A stretch of DNA of 64,000 nucleotides, taken from the NCBI GenBank assembly GCA_030425505.1, contig JAUIAB010000016.1, positions 1-64,000 of the forward strand. The letters run 5' to 3'. Each line of letters begins with the position of its first letter. Within the stretch, counting starts at the first letter, position 1. The DNA comes from Bacteroidia bacterium (GTDB lineage Bacteria; Bacteroidota; Bacteroidia; Cytophagales; Flammeovirgaceae). This document shows, in pieces, positions 12,301 to 63,486 of this stretch. The notes below the pieces were generated by a model. It searched no databases, was not told the origin of the DNA, and was given only the letters and a program-made list of their open reading frames with translations. A program made the position numbers and the translations under genes.

Positions 12301-15300
12301 ATGAAAAAAAAACTTTATTTTCTAAATAGCCTATTTAAGTTTCTATTTTTTCTCTTTCCGTTTTCACTTATAAATGCTTTAATTTTGGCGCAAGGAGGTA
12401 ATTATTTTGCTCCTAATGCTCCCAGAAATAATGGGAATTGGAATACTTTTATTGGGGTAGAAGCAGGACGTAATAATATAAGGGGAGATCAAAATACATT
12501 TATTGGATCAGAAGCAGGAAAAAATAATACTACTGGACGATGGAATACTTTTATTGGGGAAGAGACAGGTTATAGTAATACTTCGGGAAATAGTAATACA
12601 TTTATGGGATCAGAAGCAGGCCATAGTAATACCTCTGGGTATCGCAATACATATATAGGAATTGAGGCCGGTGAAAATAATACTACAGGACAGTGGAATA
12701 CATTTATTGGGTCACGAGCAGGCATTAGCAATGCCACGGGTAGAAATAATACATTTTTAGGCTCAGATGCTGGTTTAAATAATAGTACTGGAAGTTATAA
12801 CATTTTCATAGGCTATGAAGCAGGGCTCAATGAAAACGGATCTAATAAGCTATTTATTGCCAACTCTAGGAGCAATACTCTTATTTATGGAGATTTTAGT
12901 AGTGAGAGAGTGGGAATAAATACTACTTCTCCAGGAAACACATTAGACGTTGCTGGTGGAATTGATATAAATAATTATATACGACATAATGGAGATGAAA
13001 ACACCTATTTAGGCTTTTCAGGTAATAATGAGTTTAGAATATACACCAATGGCAGCAACAGTTTAACTGTCAAATCTACTGGAAGAGTTGGTTTAGGGAC
13101 ATCTTCTCCAACAGAGAACCTACATGTCATTGGAGCTATAAGAATAGGAATCAATAATTTTGATAACCCTGGTACCATTCGCTGGACAGGAGAAGACTTT
13201 GAAGGTTATGATGGGGATGGATGGCGGTCCTTTACCTCTATCTTCCAATTACCCAATCAGGGTTCAGGCAACCTTTTCATCGGACAGGATGCAGGAGCTA
13301 ATAACCAACCTTCTGATGTAGATAGTCAGGGTAATTACAATACTTTTGTAGGTTACGGTGCTGGTAGAAATAATACAGTTGGAAGATATAGTACATTCCT
13401 TGGAGAAGAAGCAGGCTTTTCCAATACAACGGGTGCTGCAAACACATTTCAGGGTAGACAGTCTGGGTTAAATAATACTGAAGGAAATGGAAATACATTT
13501 CAGGGGCATCATTCAGGCTTTTCTAATGTATTAGGGTCTTATAACCTCTATTTAGGCAGGAAATCTGGGTTTTCTAACCAGGAGGGGTCGCATAATGTGT
13601 TTTTAGGCAATGAAGCGGGTTACAATGAGCTTGGATCTCACAAACTATATATTGCTAATGAGAGAGACAATACTCTGATCTATGGGGAGTTTGCTCATGA
13701 TAATGTACTGGCCGGAGTTGGAGTTGGCACGCAAGACCTTCCAGAGATGTTCAATGTGAGTGGAGCTCTACATATAGGCAATAGCCGCAACCAAACCTCT
13801 GGCACCATCCGCTGGACAGGAGAAGATTTTGAAGGATACGATGGTAATCAATGGAGAACTTTTACAGGCAAATACGACTATGGAGAAGGAAACTACTTTG
13901 CTGGACTTGATGCAGGTTCTAATGTAGAAGCTAATATAGACCTGCTCACAGGCTTGTATAACACTTTTGTAGGTGCAAGTTCAGGAAATAATACCACTAC
14001 AGGAGTTTACAACACCTTTTTAGGCTATCAGTCTGGTTTTAGTAGTACCGTAGGCACAGAAAACACCTTCTTGGGTTATCGCTCAGGAAGGAATAGTACT
14101 GGTTCTCGGAACACCTATGTTGGCTACCATGCAGGAATCAACAATGATCAGGGCTCAGGGAATGTATTCATAGGCTATGGCGCAGGTGCAGAGGAAGCTA
14201 GATCCAATAGGTTGCATATTGCCAATAATACTAATAGCACCTTAATCTATGGAGAGTTTAGTAATGGGGATACTCCAGGTGCAGTAGGTATAGGCACACA
14301 GAACCTATTGGAAACATTAAATTTGGATGGGGCACTACGATTGGGAGGGAATAGAAATCAGGAGCCTGGAACGCTTCGCTGGAATGTAGAGGCAAGTGAC
14401 TTTGAAGGCTATGACGGAGAAGGCTGGAAAAGCCTGACGAGTAACCTATTGCAACTAGCTGACAATCAGCTGAGCATAGGCAATGGAAATAGTGTAGATC
14501 TATCGGTACTAGTAGAGGATGGAGATAGTGACCCAGAGAATGAGCGCATTAGTACCTTTCTCTTGGATGGCACGGAACTACGAATTACAGAAGGAGCAGA
14601 AACTCGTCTGGTAGACTTTGAAGAGATGATCCTAGAGAGAGTCCAGGGATGGTCTGTATCGGAGGATAACTTATTATTTGCCCAGAGTGGCAATATAGGC
14701 ATAGGTACGGAAGAAAACCCGATAAGAGCAAAGCTAGAGGTGATTGGTGGAGATGTATTGTTTGCTTCCAGATATGCCCAAAGGGGTAATGAGCTACGAG
14801 CAGAATACATGCGTTGGGTAAGTGATAAATCCGCATTTAGAGCGGGGCGTCCAGATGGAAATGCATGGGATAATGGAAGGATAGGAAGGTTTTCTTTTGC
14901 AGTAGGTAGAGGGACCGTAGCAAGTGGAGAGTACACATCTGCTTTTGGAGCAAGGACAAGTGCTACAGCATATGCTGCTACTTCTTTTGGGGAGTACAGC
15001 AGAGCAGAGGGACAAGGCTCAGTATCTTTTGGTAGCTACAGTGAGGCAAGAGGAGATTACTCAGTAGTATTTGGAGAAAGGGTAAATGCAAATAGTTATG
15101 GGTCTGTTGTATTTGGCAGGTATAATACTATGCAAGAATCTTCTAGGAATAGCTGGGAAGAAGAAGATTATTTATTAGTAGTAGGTAACGGTGTAGACGA
15201 AAACAATAGAAACAATGCTTTATCGCTATACAAAAATGGTAATTTAGAAATGAATGGAGCATATCCTTTTGATGAAGACCGAGATGGAATAGATGAAATG

Positions 15301-16242
15301 CTACCAAACCAATTTTCCTGGAACTCTTCTAGAGGCAGTATGCGTCTGAATGCACTCGTCACACCGTTAGAAGAACAAGAAGGTTTCGGATCCATATCTG
15401 TAGGAAGACAAACAACAAGTGAAGGATGGTTTTCTGCTGCTTTTGGAGATAATGTATCTTCTGAAAATAGAACCTCTTTCGTTGTAGGTGCATATAATGA
15501 ATTAGATGAGGAGGGCAATCCTGGAAATGATCAGCCTGATGATTATATTTTTGCGATTGGAAATGGTTCTGAAGGAAGAAGGTCTAATGCTGTGACTGTT
15601 TTGAGAAATGGGAATACAGATATCAATGGAAATGTCACTGTTGAAAACCTTATCAATAATTCTGATAGGAGATATAAAAAGAATATCAACAAATTAAAAT
15701 CACCATCAAAGTTAGGTAAGCTGAATGGGGTGCAGTATAATTTAAAGAAAAGCAAAGATGATAGGCTTGAGTTTGGTTTTATTGCACAAGAACTACAAAA
15801 AGTTTACCCTAATTTAGTATACGAGGATAAAAAAGGCTATTTAGGAGTAAATTATGTTGGATTAATCCCTCTGCTTACGGAAGCCTACAAAGAGTTGAAA
15901 AGTGATTACCAAGAACTAAAAAATGAGTTTGAGGAATTGAAATCGAAAAGTAGTCTAAAAGAAGACTGGTTAAAAATAAAGAAGGCTAAACTGTTCCAAA
16001 ATAGACCAAATCCATTTACTGAAAATACAACAATAGAGTTTGTTCTTCCAGAAGATATTCAAAAGGCAGAATTATATATCTATAACATGAATGGTCAACA
16101 GTTAAGAAGCTACTCGATCAACCAAAGGGGAAACGGAGCAGTAGAAATTCACGGAGGAGAGTTGAAAGCAGGCATGTATTTATACAGCCTTATTGCAGAT
16201 GACGAAGAAATAGGAACTGAAAGAATGATTCTAACAAGATAA
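12301..16242 (+). CDS. Giant repeat protein: YadA-like beta-roll, S74 chaperone domain, T9SS sorting tail
   Basis: About 1313 residues from the ATG at 12301 (MKKKLYFLNSLFKFLFFLF); a GTG at 12277 and an ATG at 12292 are alternative starts. After the signal peptide come three modules of 14-16-residue repeats of the type NTFIGxxAGxNNTTG. Each module closes with a WTGEDFEGYDG-like motif. YadA-head-like repeats follow (SFAVGRG, TSAFGAR, SVSFGSY, SVVFGER). Next are a peptidase S74 domain (SDRRYKKNINKL to GYLGVNYVGLIPLLTEAYK), a coiled coil, and a T9SS sorting tail (NRPNPFTENTTIEF to MYLYSLI). It is probably a trimeric fibre exported by T9SS; its target is unknown. S74 domains normally cleave themselves at the Ser of SDxR, here encoded at 15661. 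Confidence 0.85.
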   Translation: MKKKLYFLNSLFKFLFFLFPFSLINALILAQGGNYFAPNAPRNNGNWNTFIGVEAGRNNIRGDQNTFIGSEAGKNNTTGRWNTFIGEETGYSNTSGNSNTFMGSEAGHSNTSGYRNTYIGIEAGENNTTGQWNTFIGSRAGISNATGRNNTFLGSDAGLNNSTGSYNIFIGYEAGLNENGSNKLFIANSRSNTLIYGDFSSERVGINTTSPGNTLDVAGGIDINNYIRHNGDENTYLGFSGNNEFRIYTNGSNSLTVKSTGRVGLGTSSPTENLHVIGAIRIGINNFDNPGTIRWTGEDFEGYDGDGWRSFTSIFQLPNQGSGNLFIGQDAGANNQPSDVDSQGNYNTFVGYGAGRNNTVGRYSTFLGEEAGFSNTTGAANTFQGRQSGLNNTEGNGNTFQGHHSGFSNVLGSYNLYLGRKSGFSNQEGSHNVFLGNEAGYNELGSHKLYIANERDNTLIYGEFAHDNVLAGVGVGTQDLPEMFNVSGALHIGNSRNQTSGTIRWTGEDFEGYDGNQWRTFTGKYDYGEGNYFAGLDAGSNVEANIDLLTGLYNTFVGASSGNNTTTGVYNTFLGYQSGFSSTVGTENTFLGYRSGRNSTGSRNTYVGYHAGINNDQGSGNVFIGYGAGAEEARSNRLHIANNTNSTLIYGEFSNGDTPGAVGIGTQNLLETLNLDGALRLGGNRNQEPGTLRWNVEASDFEGYDGEGWKSLTSNLLQLADNQLSIGNGNSVDLSVLVEDGDSDPENERISTFLLDGTELRITEGAETRLVDFEEMILERVQGWSVSEDNLLFAQSGNIGIGTEENPIRAKLEVIGGDVLFASRYAQRGNELRAEYMRWVSDKSAFRAGRPDGNAWDNGRIGRFSFAVGRGTVASGEYTSAFGARTSATAYAATSFGEYSRAEGQGSVSFGSYSEARGDYSVVFGERVNANSYGSVVFGRYNTMQESSRNSWEEEDYLLVVGNGVDENNRNNALSLYKNGNLEMNGAYPFDEDRDGIDEMLPNQFSWNSSRGSMRLNALVTPLEEQEGFGSISVGRQTTSEGWFSAAFGDNVSSENRTSFVVGAYNELDEEGNPGNDQPDDYIFAIGNGSEGRRSNAVTVLRNGNTDINGNVTVENLINNSDRRYKKNINKLKSPSKLGKLNGVQYNLKKSKDDRLEFGFIAQELQKVYPNLVYEDKKGYLGVNYVGLIPLLTEAYKELKSDYQELKNEFEELKSKSSLKEDWLKIKKAKLFQNRPNPFTENTTIEFVLPEDIQKAELYIYNMNGQQLRSYSINQRGNGAVEIHGGELKAGMYLYSLIADDEEIGTERMILTR
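12430..14430 (+). repeat. Coding repeats: three modules of 42-48-bp units
   Basis: Within the giant protein gene, units reading AATACxTTTATxGG...GCAGG...AATAATACTACxGG recur many times in three blocks (about 12430-12860, 13270-13640 and 13890-14200). Each block is followed by an ending with CTTATTTATGG-like sequence and a conserved RWTGEDFEGYDG or RWNVEASDFEGYDG coding motif (about 13180, 13810 and 14380). The units are diverged at silent sites. The protein pattern is therefore under selection, although slippage or recombination could still change the copy number. Confidence 0.85.
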
Positions 16243-59115: not shown

Positions 59116-62100
59116 TTATTGACTAATAAGGTATTCCAGATTAATAATGGCCTGGTTATACTCGTTTAATGTATTGAGGTAATTGAATTTCAGTTCCAAT
59201 CCTTGATTCAGGTTTTGGAAATATTCCACATAATCTATGGCCTCATTCTCAAAGCTCTTTTGGGCATTGCCAATGATTAAGTTGGCCTGTGGAATGGCCT
59301 TGTATCTGTAATAACTCAAACTGCCCTGATATTTTAATACTTCCTGCAACTGCTGTTCGTATTGTCCTTGAAGAACAGTTGAGTAGTAACTAGCATTGCT
59401 TTCCGCCATTTGCTCTTTCAGTTTAGCAGATTTTATATTTGCCCTATAAGAGCTGTAAAACAAGGGAATGGTTATGACTGCCTGAACACCAGTAAAGCGA
59501 TCAGAGCCAGTGGCAATATCTCCGCTACCAGTTTGGCTTCCAATTAAGGATTGATTAAAATACCCTACTGATAATCCGGGTAGCATTTTGGCTGACTGCA
59601 CCGCCTTTTCAGCATTTGCAATATTAATCTGTTGTCTAGCATAAGCTAACAAGGGATTGTTGGTAAGTTGGGTGGAATCCTGAATATTGGCTATTCGCCT
59701 TTCGCCCAAAACATCCGGCATAAAACTTAAACCTGTTGTATCGTTCAGTAGTATTCTTAATTGTTTTTGCTGAATGGCAATGTCCGATGTAATAATTTTG
59801 AGTGCATTTTGGATTTCCATTACTCTGGTTTCTGCTGCTACCTTTTCTAGGTAACTGGATGCTTCCACTTCGTAACGGATAGTGGCTGCATGAAGAAAGC
59901 GGTCATAAATGGTGTCTTGGCACAACAACAACTTCTCTTTTTCCCTTAAGTATGCGAGTTGATACCAGCTTTGGCGTATGTCACGCTTCAGGCTGTTCAC
60001 CGTTAATGCCAGTTGCACCTGACTACCTTCTATTTTTTCTTTTGCCAGTTTGTGTTGGTTGGTATAGACCGTAGGAAAATCAAATTGCTGGTTCAGGTTA
60101 ATAGCCAAATCGTTTTCAAAGCTGTTGTATTGACCGTACTGTACGCCCACATTTGTCTTGCCAGGATTGAAGGCTGCTTTTTTTCCCTGTTTCTGTAACT
60201 CAATGTTGGTTTTGGCTACCTGTATATTACCGTTGTTAGATAACCCGATGGCAACAGCTTCTTCTAAAGTGGTAATGGTTTTGCTTTTTACATCCTGCGC
60301 TTTCAAGTCAGGAGATGAAAATAGTGAAAGTGCAGCAACAAGTAGTATTACAACAGTGGCTTTTGAAAATGGCACTTTAGTACTTCTCATTTCAACCCAT
60401 CGATATAAAATTGGTAACACAAAAAGTGTCAATAATGTAGCTGTTATCATTCCGCCAATAACTACAGTGGCAAGGGGTTGCTGTACTTCCGCTCCAGCAG
60501 AAGTAGATACCGCCATCGGTAAAAAGCCCAAAACGTCTGTTAATGCAGTAAGCAGAATGGGTCTTATTCGCCTTCTTGCCCCTAAAAAGATTCGTTCATT
60601 CAGACTGCTGACACCTTCTTCTTTTAATTCATTCCAGCTGCTGATCAGCACTAATCCGTTCAAAACAGCTACACCAAAGAGTACGATGAAGCCAACACCC
60701 GCAGAAATACTGAAAGGCATGTCACGCAGCCACAGGGAGAATATACCTCCAATAGCTGCCAATGGAATAGCCATGTATATCATCATAGATTGCTTGAAAG
60801 ATCTTAAAGCGAAGAATATCAGAAGAAATATCAATCCCAGAGCCATAGGGACTACTATCTGTAATCTCCTACTTGCTCGTTCCAAGTTCTCGAATGCTCC
60901 ACCATACCTAATGTAATAACCTGGAGGTAAGTCAAGCTGATCATCGAGCTTTTGTTGAATTTCTTCTACAAGGGATTTTATATCACGTCCCCTGACATTC
61001 ACACCAACATAAGTTCTACGGTTGGTATTGTCACGACTAATCTGCATAGGACCAGGTTGATAGCTGATGTTTGCAACCTCTTGCAATGGAATCTGTGAAC
61101 CATTGGGTAAATTGATGTACAGATTTTTAAGGTCGTCTATGCTTTTGCGATGCTGTTTATGTAGCCGAACTACCAAATCAAAACGTTTTTCTCCTTCAAA
61201 AATCACTCCTGCCTTTCCTCCTGCAAAAGCAGATTCAACTAGGGTATTCAAATCTGCCACATGAATGCCATACTGCGCCAGTTTATACCGGTTGTATTTG
61301 ATGGTCATTTGTGGTAGACCACTGGTTGCTTCTACTTTCATATCTGCCACTCCCTGTACTTTTGAGATTATCTTGCCAATTTCTTCGACTTTGGCAGCCA
61401 AAATGTCTAAATCTTCACCGAATAATTTAACAGCTATATCTTCTCTTACTCCGGTAAGCAGTTCGTTGAACCGCATCTCAATTGGCTGAGTGAACTCATA
61501 ATTTACTCCCAGAACCACACTTACTGCCTTTTTCATTTTTTCAACGAGTTCTTCCTTACTATTAGCCGATACCCATTCATTCTTTGGTTTAAGCAATACA
61601 ATACAGTCTCCAACGTCCATTGGCATTGGGTCGGTAGGAACATCTGCAACTCCAAAGCGTGTCATGGCGTGCTTGATTTCTGGAAAATTAGCAAGGAGAA
61701 TATTCTCGATTTTAGTAGATGTCTCAATGGATTCTGATAAGGAACTGCCCGGTTTCAGAATAATATGAAAAGCTAAGTCTCCTTCATCTAATTGAGGAAT
61801 GAACTCACCACCTAGTCGCAAAAAAGTAAATGCTGCCAGACCTAATAAAACCACAGCTGAAACAACGATCCATTTCGCTCTTTTCAATGCCTTGCCCAAT
61901 GTGGGTTCATAAATATTCTCCAACCAGATCACGAAGTGGTCGCCCCAAGAGGTTTTGTTCTTTTTACCCATTTGGATAAACAAGGCTGACATCATAGGAA
62001 CATAGGTGAGGCAAAGTATCATTACTCCTATCATGGCGAACATAAAGGTAAGTGCCATTGGCTGGAACATTTTACCTTCCACACCCTGCAATGCCAGTAT

Positions 62101-63486
62101 AGGAATAAATACTATAAGGATGATAAGCTGCCCAAAGAAAGCAGCATTCATCATCTTACTTGATGCAGAATAAGCCACTTCATTTCTCACCTTAGTATTA
62201 AGGTCTTGATTCTTCAATACTTTGTCATGCAACAGGAATACGGTTCCTTCTACAATAATTACCGCCCCGTCTACAATAATTCCGAAGTCAATAGCTCCTA
62301 AACTCATCAGGTTAGCCCACACGTCAAAAATATTCATTAAGATAAAGGCAAATAATAAAGAAAGGGGAATGGTTGAGGCTACGATTAACCCTCCTCTCCA
62401 GTTTCCAAGTAAGAACACTAAGACAAAGATCACAATTAAAGCCCCTTCCATGAGATTCTGACTTAGAGTGCTTGTGGTATTTGCAATTAAGGAGCTTCGG
62501 TCTAAAAGCGGCACTATACTTACGCCTTCGGGTAATGATTTTTGAATATCCTCGACCCGATTCTTTACTGCATTTATTACATTATTTGAGTTGGCTCCTT
62601 TCAGCATGAGTATCATGCCACCAACTGCTTCTCCCTTTCCGTCTTTTGTAAATGCGCCATATCGTATTGCTTTTCCGATCTGTACTATTGCAACATCCTT
62701 AATAGTTATGGGCAGACCATCTATATTTGTTACTACAATACTTTCAATGTCCTTTATACTTCGGGCTAGTCCTTCACCTCGAATAAAATTAGCATAGTGG
62801 TCTTTTTCTATATAAGCCCCACCGGTGTTCTGGTTGTTCTTTTCAAGGGCCGTAAAAATATCGGAAATGGTGAGTCCAATTGCTTTTAATTCATCTGGAT
62901 CAACAGCTACTTCGTACTGTTTGATATTACCGCCAAAGGCATTGACTTCCACCACACCTGGAACCATTGCCATTTGCCTGCGAACAATCCAATCTTGCAT
63001 GATACGCAAGTCTGCGGCGGAATAACGGAGCAGATAAGCAGAATCTACCTCTAGTGTATATTGGTATATTTCACCTAATCCAGTGGATATTGGTCCCATT
63101 GAAGGCTCGCCGAAACCTTGCGGGATTTTTTCTTTGACCTCCGTAAGTTTTTCGGCTACCAGTTGTCTGGGCAAATAGATTCCCATGTCATCTTCAAAAA
63201 CGATGGTTACTACTGATAGCCCAAAACGTGAAACAGAGCGTATTTCTGTAACGCCTGGAAGGTTGGCCATTGATACTTCAACGGGGTAGGTAACGAATTG
63301 CTCAATATCCTCTGTTCCTAGATTTGGAGCTTGTGTAATGACTTGTAACTGGTTATTAGTTATATCTGGCACAGCATCGAGCGGAACTTTGGTTATACTC
63401 CATATCCCCCCAATTATGAGAGCTATGGTAAGAAAACCAATGATCAGTTTGTTCTTTATCGAGAACGATATTATTTGATTGATCAT
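59116..63486 (-). CDS. CzcA-type heavy-metal RND pump fused to a TolC-like channel
   Basis: A 1456-residue fusion. Residues 1 to about 1035 are an HME-RND pump with twelve helices. TM4 has DFGIIVDGAVIIVE with D400, D406 and E413, the CzcA proton-relay set, which suggests Zn/Co/Cd or Ni rather than Cu/Ag. After a hydrophobic, signal-like stretch (ATVVILLVAALSLFSS, then PDLKAQ) comes an outer-membrane-factor part of about 400 residues with the TolC helical repeats (TLEEAVAIGLSNNGNIQVAK, PLLAYARQQINIANAEKAVQ). Such fusions are usual in Bacteroidota. A separate channel protein is therefore not needed in the operon. The protein may be processed at the linker. Confidence 0.94.
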   Translation of the reverse strand: MINQIISFSIKNKLIIGFLTIALIIGGIWSITKVPLDAVPDITNNQLQVITQAPNLGTEDIEQFVTYPVEVSMANLPGVTEIRSVSRFGLSVVTIVFEDDMGIYLPRQLVAEKLTEVKEKIPQGFGEPSMGPISTGLGEIYQYTLEVDSAYLLRYSAADLRIMQDWIVRRQMAMVPGVVEVNAFGGNIKQYEVAVDPDELKAIGLTISDIFTALEKNNQNTGGAYIEKDHYANFIRGEGLARSIKDIESIVVTNIDGLPITIKDVAIVQIGKAIRYGAFTKDGKGEAVGGMILMLKGANSNNVINAVKNRVEDIQKSLPEGVSIVPLLDRSSLIANTTSTLSQNLMEGALIVIFVLVFLLGNWRGGLIVASTIPLSLLFAFILMNIFDVWANLMSLGAIDFGIIVDGAVIIVEGTVFLLHDKVLKNQDLNTKVRNEVAYSASSKMMNAAFFGQLIILIVFIPILALQGVEGKMFQPMALTFMFAMIGVMILCLTYVPMMSALFIQMGKKNKTSWGDHFVIWLENIYEPTLGKALKRAKWIVVSAVVLLGLAAFTFLRLGGEFIPQLDEGDLAFHIILKPGSSLSESIETSTKIENILLANFPEIKHAMTRFGVADVPTDPMPMDVGDCIVLLKPKNEWVSANSKEELVEKMKKAVSVVLGVNYEFTQPIEMRFNELLTGVREDIAVKLFGEDLDILAAKVEEIGKIISKVQGVADMKVEATSGLPQMTIKYNRYKLAQYGIHVADLNTLVESAFAGGKAGVIFEGEKRFDLVVRLHKQHRKSIDDLKNLYINLPNGSQIPLQEVANISYQPGPMQISRDNTNRRTYVGVNVRGRDIKSLVEEIQQKLDDQLDLPPGYYIRYGGAFENLERASRRLQIVVPMALGLIFLLIFFALRSFKQSMMIYMAIPLAAIGGIFSLWLRDMPFSISAGVGFIVLFGVAVLNGLVLISSWNELKEEGVSSLNERIFLGARRRIRPILLTALTDVLGFLPMAVSTSAGAEVQQPLATVVIGGMITATLLTLFVLPILYRWVEMRSTKVPFSKATVVILLVAALSLFSSPDLKAQDVKSKTITTLEEAVAIGLSNNGNIQVAKTNIELQKQGKKAAFNPGKTNVGVQYGQYNSFENDLAINLNQQFDFPTVYTNQHKLAKEKIEGSQVQLALTVNSLKRDIRQSWYQLAYLREKEKLLLCQDTIYDRFLHAATIRYEVEASSYLEKVAAETRVMEIQNALKIITSDIAIQQKQLRILLNDTTGLSFMPDVLGERRIANIQDSTQLTNNPLLAYARQQINIANAEKAVQSAKMLPGLSVGYFNQSLIGSQTGSGDIATGSDRFTGVQAVITIPLFYSSYRANIKSAKLKEQMAESNASYYSTVLQGQYEQQLQEVLKYQGSLSYYRYKAIPQANLIIGNAQKSFENEAIDYVEYFQNLNQGLELKFNYLNTLNEYNQAIINLEYLISQ

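Follow-up and report, generated by a model that had tools for sequence, protein, structure and literature searches.

How can a fibre be secreted by means of a C-terminal tag that its own chaperone domain is predicted to cut away? This question is raised by one gene in the window, that is, the whole 64,000-nucleotide stretch of contig JAUIAB010000016.1 from a Bacteroidia bacterium (Flammeovirgaceae) that was analysed. The frame at 12301-16242 on the forward strand is open over 1313 codons and joins a Peptidase_S74 domain and a T9SS tail in one chain. The initial annotation had reasoned that S74 cutting would send the sorting tail away together with the chaperone, and this logic holds for a cut at Ser1121. 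The S74 domain and the T9SS type A sorting domain (CTD) are each known, and their combination is already in RefSeq under an S74-derived name, while literature searches, with most subscription papers outside their reach, returned no relevant paper on it.

The proposed order of beta-roll repeats, S74 domain and T9SS tail was borne out, for the latter two by Pfam and NCBIfam matches above their cut-offs (Table 1). Repeats of 17 residues fill the N-terminal half of the protein in three arrays, starting by residue 46, and appear in the DNA as a 51 bp periodicity at 12436-12722. The YadA_head profile (PF05658) matched residues 902-925 (E 1.8e-06, 28.6 bits against a cut-off of 25), Peptidase_S74 (PF13884) scored 56.7 bits (E 2.9e-15; cut-off 22), and the tail was recognised both by Por_Secre_tail (PF18962; residues 1236-1304, E 7e-07, above the curated cut-off) and by the T9SS type A family TIGR04183 of NCBIfam (E 8.7e-08, above cut-off). 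Head repeats are also found in the YadA-type (type Vc) trimeric autotransporters, an identity that we rejected because the anchor barrel is absent: profile searches detected none (NF033478 reached 17 bits against a cut-off of 750), and the C-terminus is instead a T9SS CTD.

Table 1. Features of the S74-CTD protein, in window coordinates, and the basis of each assignment
Feature	Coordinates	Strand	Basis
Coding sequence of S74-CTD protein, 1313 aa, ATG to stop	12301..16242	+	open frame
Sec signal peptide, residues 1-30 (MKKKLYFLNSLFKFLFFLFPFSLINALILA, cleaved before Q)	12301..12390	+	cleavage site inferred by eye from sequence
Beta-roll repeats, array 1, 17-residue units (GxNTFIGxEAGxNNTTG)	12436..12840	+	sequence repeats
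Beta-roll repeats, array 2, 17-residue units	13333..13620	+	sequence repeats
Beta-roll repeats, array 3, 17-residue units	13954..14190	+	sequence repeats
YadA-head-like repeats, residues 869-943	14905..15129	+	Pfam PF05658; weak match to Yersinia YadA head 1p9h
Pre-cut stalk, residues 1099-1120	15595..15660	+	within stretch aligning with MyRF stalk (7dc3, model residues 19-139)
Ser1121, predicted nucleophile, TCT codon	15661..15663	+	alignment with solved S74 chains
Lys1126, predicted general base	15676..15678	+	alignment with solved S74 chains
Peptidase_S74 / ICA core, residues 1121-1174	15661..15822	+	Pfam
ICA C-terminal helix, residues 1185-1217, predicted trimeric coiled coil	15853..15951	+	structure model
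T9SS type A sorting domain (Ig-like CTD), residues 1227-1313	15979..16239	+	Pfam, TIGR04183, structure model

The SDRRYKK motif is present with its dyad intact, and the Ser codon lies precisely where the initial annotation had placed it. Ser1121 and Lys1126 are the counterparts of the proven S74 catalytic pair, and the predicted cut is expected to fall between Asn1120 and Ser1121. In a profile of 50 tailed relatives, SDxxxK aligned with the corresponding positions of the phage fibre 6f45, the neck appendage protein 3gud and MyRF 7dc3. The latter has Ala at the Ser position, as expected since its structure was solved on S587A protein (PMC8326128). A monomer model of residues 1081-1313 reached a mean pLDDT of 87, and that of the region upstream of S74 was too poor for use (mean pLDDT 49). 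The first part of the model resembles the ICA domain and stalk of MyRF (7dc3; Z 10.1, 121 residues, 2.1 A) over residues 1099-1219. Towards its end the model resembles the CTDs of PorU (6za2, Z 10.8), mirolase (8qb1, Z 10.0) and PorZ (Z 9.7); Ig-like folds of many unrelated proteins reach similar Z, so that it is chiefly the sequence profiles that support the CTD assignment. Foldseek alone ranked the mirolase CTD first, and the ICA match was absent among its top rows. The coiled coil, described earlier as a separate module, is the C-terminal helix of the ICA domain itself, and the MyRF alignment extends over it. Profile, dyad and modelled fold together thus assign the protein to the S74/ICA family, and its CTD, putative signal peptide and the machinery of its genome assign it to T9SS type A cargo.

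This machinery comprises SprA, PorU in full length (1177 bits) and, above cut-off, three genes of the PorV family. In all, the genome carries seven S74 genes, some of them incomplete at the 5' end (one owing to a contig end), and SDxxxK is present in 7/7 and a terminal type A CTD likewise in 7/7, so that the combination is the rule in the source organism. It is not peculiar to the 12301-16242 protein, as six further genes share its domain order, far beyond chance. The database search for this architecture that the initial annotation had proposed found it to recur across Bacteroidota. A prophage origin was rejected in view of the neighbouring rhodanese, aat, UDP-glucose dehydrogenase and DsbD genes and of the absence of the CTD from the viral S74 ORFs examined. 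Elsewhere in the window, an AcrB-type RND pump and a TolC-type outer membrane efflux domain (OEP) are encoded in a single frame of 1456 residues (59116-63486, minus strand).

Phage S74 proteins such as endosialidase NF, the GA-1 neck appendage, the T5 L-fibre and the long tail fibre 6f45 share S74 and SDxxxK with the protein, but differ from it in that the CTD was not found among them: it was seen in 0/89 S74 ORFs from viral contigs, and of 951 phage records with a match to the S74-CTD query none covered 80% of it or both of its parts. The dyad occurred in 89/89 of the viral ORFs, a count that is biased by the motif being part of one of the two search patterns. In RefSeq, S74 and tail together, over 87-89% of the query, were found in entries named 'tail fiber domain-containing protein' after the S74 domain alone, such as WP_005863685.1 of Parabacteroides distasonis and WP_264793687.1 of Aureispira anguillae. 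On a plasmid of P. distasonis (NZ_OY725801.1, 103942-107065; locus L322), two nearby genes of that name have a glycosyltransferase gene between them.

To place the combination in a wider frame, 249 S74 ORFs that are intact at the C-terminus were gathered from named genomes, the family of the window and an evenly spread sample of the phylum. The CTD is present in 73 and absent from 176. Leaving out truncated ORFs, Ser...Lys is retained in 71/72 tailed and 172/174 tail-less ORFs, or in 54/55 and 113/115 of the clusters at 60%; the named genomes were surveyed with DNA patterns that lack SDxxxK, and the Pfam-based phylum sample may carry a mild motif bias because the profile starts at the Ser. Among 125 columns of the tailed ORFs (mean identity 31.5%), the most conserved are a Gly, followed by Lys1126 and Ser1121. 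In a 50-row alignment of tailed relatives, the S, D and K of S74 and the P, N and P of the CTD are invariant; by Pfam, all 50 rows contain S74 and 43 contain Por_Secre_tail. The idea that fusion to the CTD generally entails loss of the catalytic residues is thereby rejected. As both dyad and CTD are conserved, the ability to cut and the export tag are maintained in the same chain, which argues that the predicted cut is real and functional. The sole tailed ORF without the dyad (L161, minus strand, ORF offset 1417, genome G264) has EDARLR in place of SDxxxK, and might be a natural inactive case next to an active paralogue.

Owners of tailed S74 proteins include Bacteroidales, Flavobacteriales, Saprospiraceae, Chitinophagales and Cytophagales-type organisms. 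Within the even sample and the family of the window, the tailed kind occurs in 12/87 S74-bearing genomes, which are nearly always of one kind. SprA was found in all S74-bearing genomes checked (80/80), and the confinement of CTD-bearing S74 to SprA genomes is therefore not informative. When the tail label is mapped on the S74 domain phylogeny, the best tree has 24 changes against about 48 by shuffling, an exact number that is soft because the domain offers few columns, and well supported branches force at least 4 changes; the tail thus appears to have been gained or lost repeatedly. By a simple hydrophobicity rule, Sec-type signals are found on tailed and tail-less relatives alike. An iterated profile for an N-terminal domain matched 19/108 tail-less and 0/39 tailed ORFs, which is suggestive of a shared N-terminal domain marking the tail-less proteins. 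In T9SS-bearing Bacteroidota, the majority of S74 proteins (among them loci L088-L097 and L102-L130) carry a Sec-type signal and finish with the S74 helix; they lack a CTD and usually a lipobox too, so that S74 proteins do not in general need the CTD. Other arrangements were also seen, namely a C-terminal hydrophobic stretch ending in RQKRA behind S74 (L180, plus strand, ORF offset 950), which recalls the MYRF order of S74 before a membrane anchor, and a mid-protein S74 with long, unrelated C-terminal tails in Candidatus Dojkabacteria (L037, L055) and Candidatus Parcubacteria (L062).

Given these data, we propose that the gene product is a secreted fibre, trimeric and adhesin-like, which severs itself from its own export tag after export, a reading to which we assign an even chance. 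The chain would enter the periplasm by Sec, and PorV would then carry the still monomeric protein through the SprA translocon with the CTD in front, the route by which type A cargo, PorV-bound, leaves through the SprA pore (PMC10994853). Outside the cell, the S74/coiled-coil unit would drive trimerisation and thus assemble the Ser1121-Lys1126 site, in line with the trimer being required for S74 cutting (PMC8326128, PMC3742443). The cut before Ser1121 would then part the mature fibre, about 1090 residues long, from its S74-CTD piece. Trimerisation, cutting, its place outside the cell and release are all steps that we infer. The initial annotation had set release and prior secretion against each other; each outcome is retained here, but not as alternatives, as both would follow if the exported monomer cuts only after trimerising. 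It had also seen a puzzle in the order of cutting by S74 and PorU. A PorU cut would fall between S74 and the CTD, on the downstream side of the S74 site, and so would decide only the fate of the S74 piece, which PorU might anchor or discard. The freed fibre, ending at Asn1120, would carry nothing for PorU to anchor and be beyond its reach, so that the competition weighs less than had been supposed.

The nearest working analogue seems to be MYRF, and by this analogy the protein would work most like MYRF turned outward. Both have an S74/ICA domain in the middle of the protein with a beta-stalk before it and a helix after it, followed by a C-terminal localisation element that is, or here would be, severed from the working part. 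In MYRF, however, the anchor is an ER membrane helix, the working part is a transcription factor, and there is no prior secretion step. The Bdellovibrio MAT fibre Bd3182 is likewise a Sec-exported, trimeric bacterial fibre with S74 and SDxxxK, for which cutting at the same Ser was shown experimentally and the S782A mutant loses its localisation (PMC10769870), but it ends with S74 and lacks a T9SS tail. MAT fibres have a conserved beta-rich domain of about 130 residues behind the signal peptide, where the S74-CTD protein has its repeats beginning by residue 46. With type A cargo such as RgpB, RemA and AmyB, the protein shares the Sec signal and a type A CTD with the NxPNP motif and Ig-like fold; known cargo is cut by PorU beside the CTD, whereas the S74-CTD protein adds a predicted self-cutting site about 110 residues further in.

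Other readings of the same architecture have to be weighed. Trimerisation and cutting might occur outside as proposed, with the fibre held non-covalently on the S74-CTD piece, so that the cut would lock or mature a surface adhesin rather than release it. We consider this unlikely, even though the conserved dyad and the CTD would fit a cut and an anchor alike. Phage S74 fibres shed their chaperone after cutting. Likewise, the N-terminal trimer of MYRF departs from the C-terminal part once cut (PMC3742443), while static anchoring of type A cargo does occur (PMC12618676). Just as improbable, in our estimate, is that S74 merely trimerises a fibre that is never cut, with the CTD or linker blocking the reaction, PorU removing the CTD and the uncut fibre being anchored through its S74 end. 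In C. elegans MYRF-1, cutting is inhibited by a segment that lies immediately after the ICA helix (PMC12803276). A C-terminal neighbour can thus restrain the cut, which leaves room for a CTD-dependent brake, and the loss of the dyad in one tailed paralogue (L161) points the same way. However, Ser and Lys are as near-invariant in tailed as in tail-less proteins, and other S74 proteins remain uncut when their Ser is mutated to Ala, so that the Ser is needed for cutting. In addition, the helix end and linker at 1196-1231 lack [TEDN][GAS], although this motif describes a P. gingivalis-type PorU site and may not apply here; it occurs in 59/67 linkers of relatives, near chance for so common a dipeptide. 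PorU does anchor or free other type A cargo that has no S74, and Ser and Lys could be retained for reasons besides cutting, both of which are counterpoints to self-release.

The place of the cut is a further issue. T9SS cargo is generally held to fold in the periplasm (PMC10202324), which makes early trimerisation and cutting possible, and tail-less S74 proteins with Sec signals in T9SS-bearing genomes suggest that S74 fibres may use periplasmic or other routes. The fibre might accordingly stay in the periplasm or leave otherwise, with the T9SS exporting the S74-CTD piece alone, as waste or as a folding check. This we regard as still less probable, because retaining a CTD merely to export a by-product would be costly and the fibre would require another exit. 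A periplasmic cut would cost the fibre its export signal, yet dyad and CTD are kept together, and export, trimer and then cut is therefore the simplest order. Finally, the repeated gain and loss of the tail on the S74 tree would suit an S74-tipped adhesin to which domain shuffling has added a tail, with cut and export lacking any functional interplay; this seems very improbable, as the tailed state is consistent within genomes (of 7 genomes that have a tail and at least two sampled S74 genes, 5 are pure for it) and the dyad survives fusion to the CTD.

Self-release after export would, if true, explain how an oligomeric fibre gets through a translocon in which only a single CTD is held at a time. 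It would also make it possible to test cleanly whether T9SS cargo has to remain monomeric until it is outside. Here we tentatively suggest, short of an even chance, a third fate for T9SS cargo beside anchoring and release by PorU, namely single-chain export, assembly outside and self-release by S74, in which the trimer itself would prove that export is complete. It would constitute a bacterial parallel to MYRF, whose S74 cut removes a localisation element, and many of the entries named 'tail fiber domain-containing protein' may represent self-releasing surface fibres rather than phage remains.
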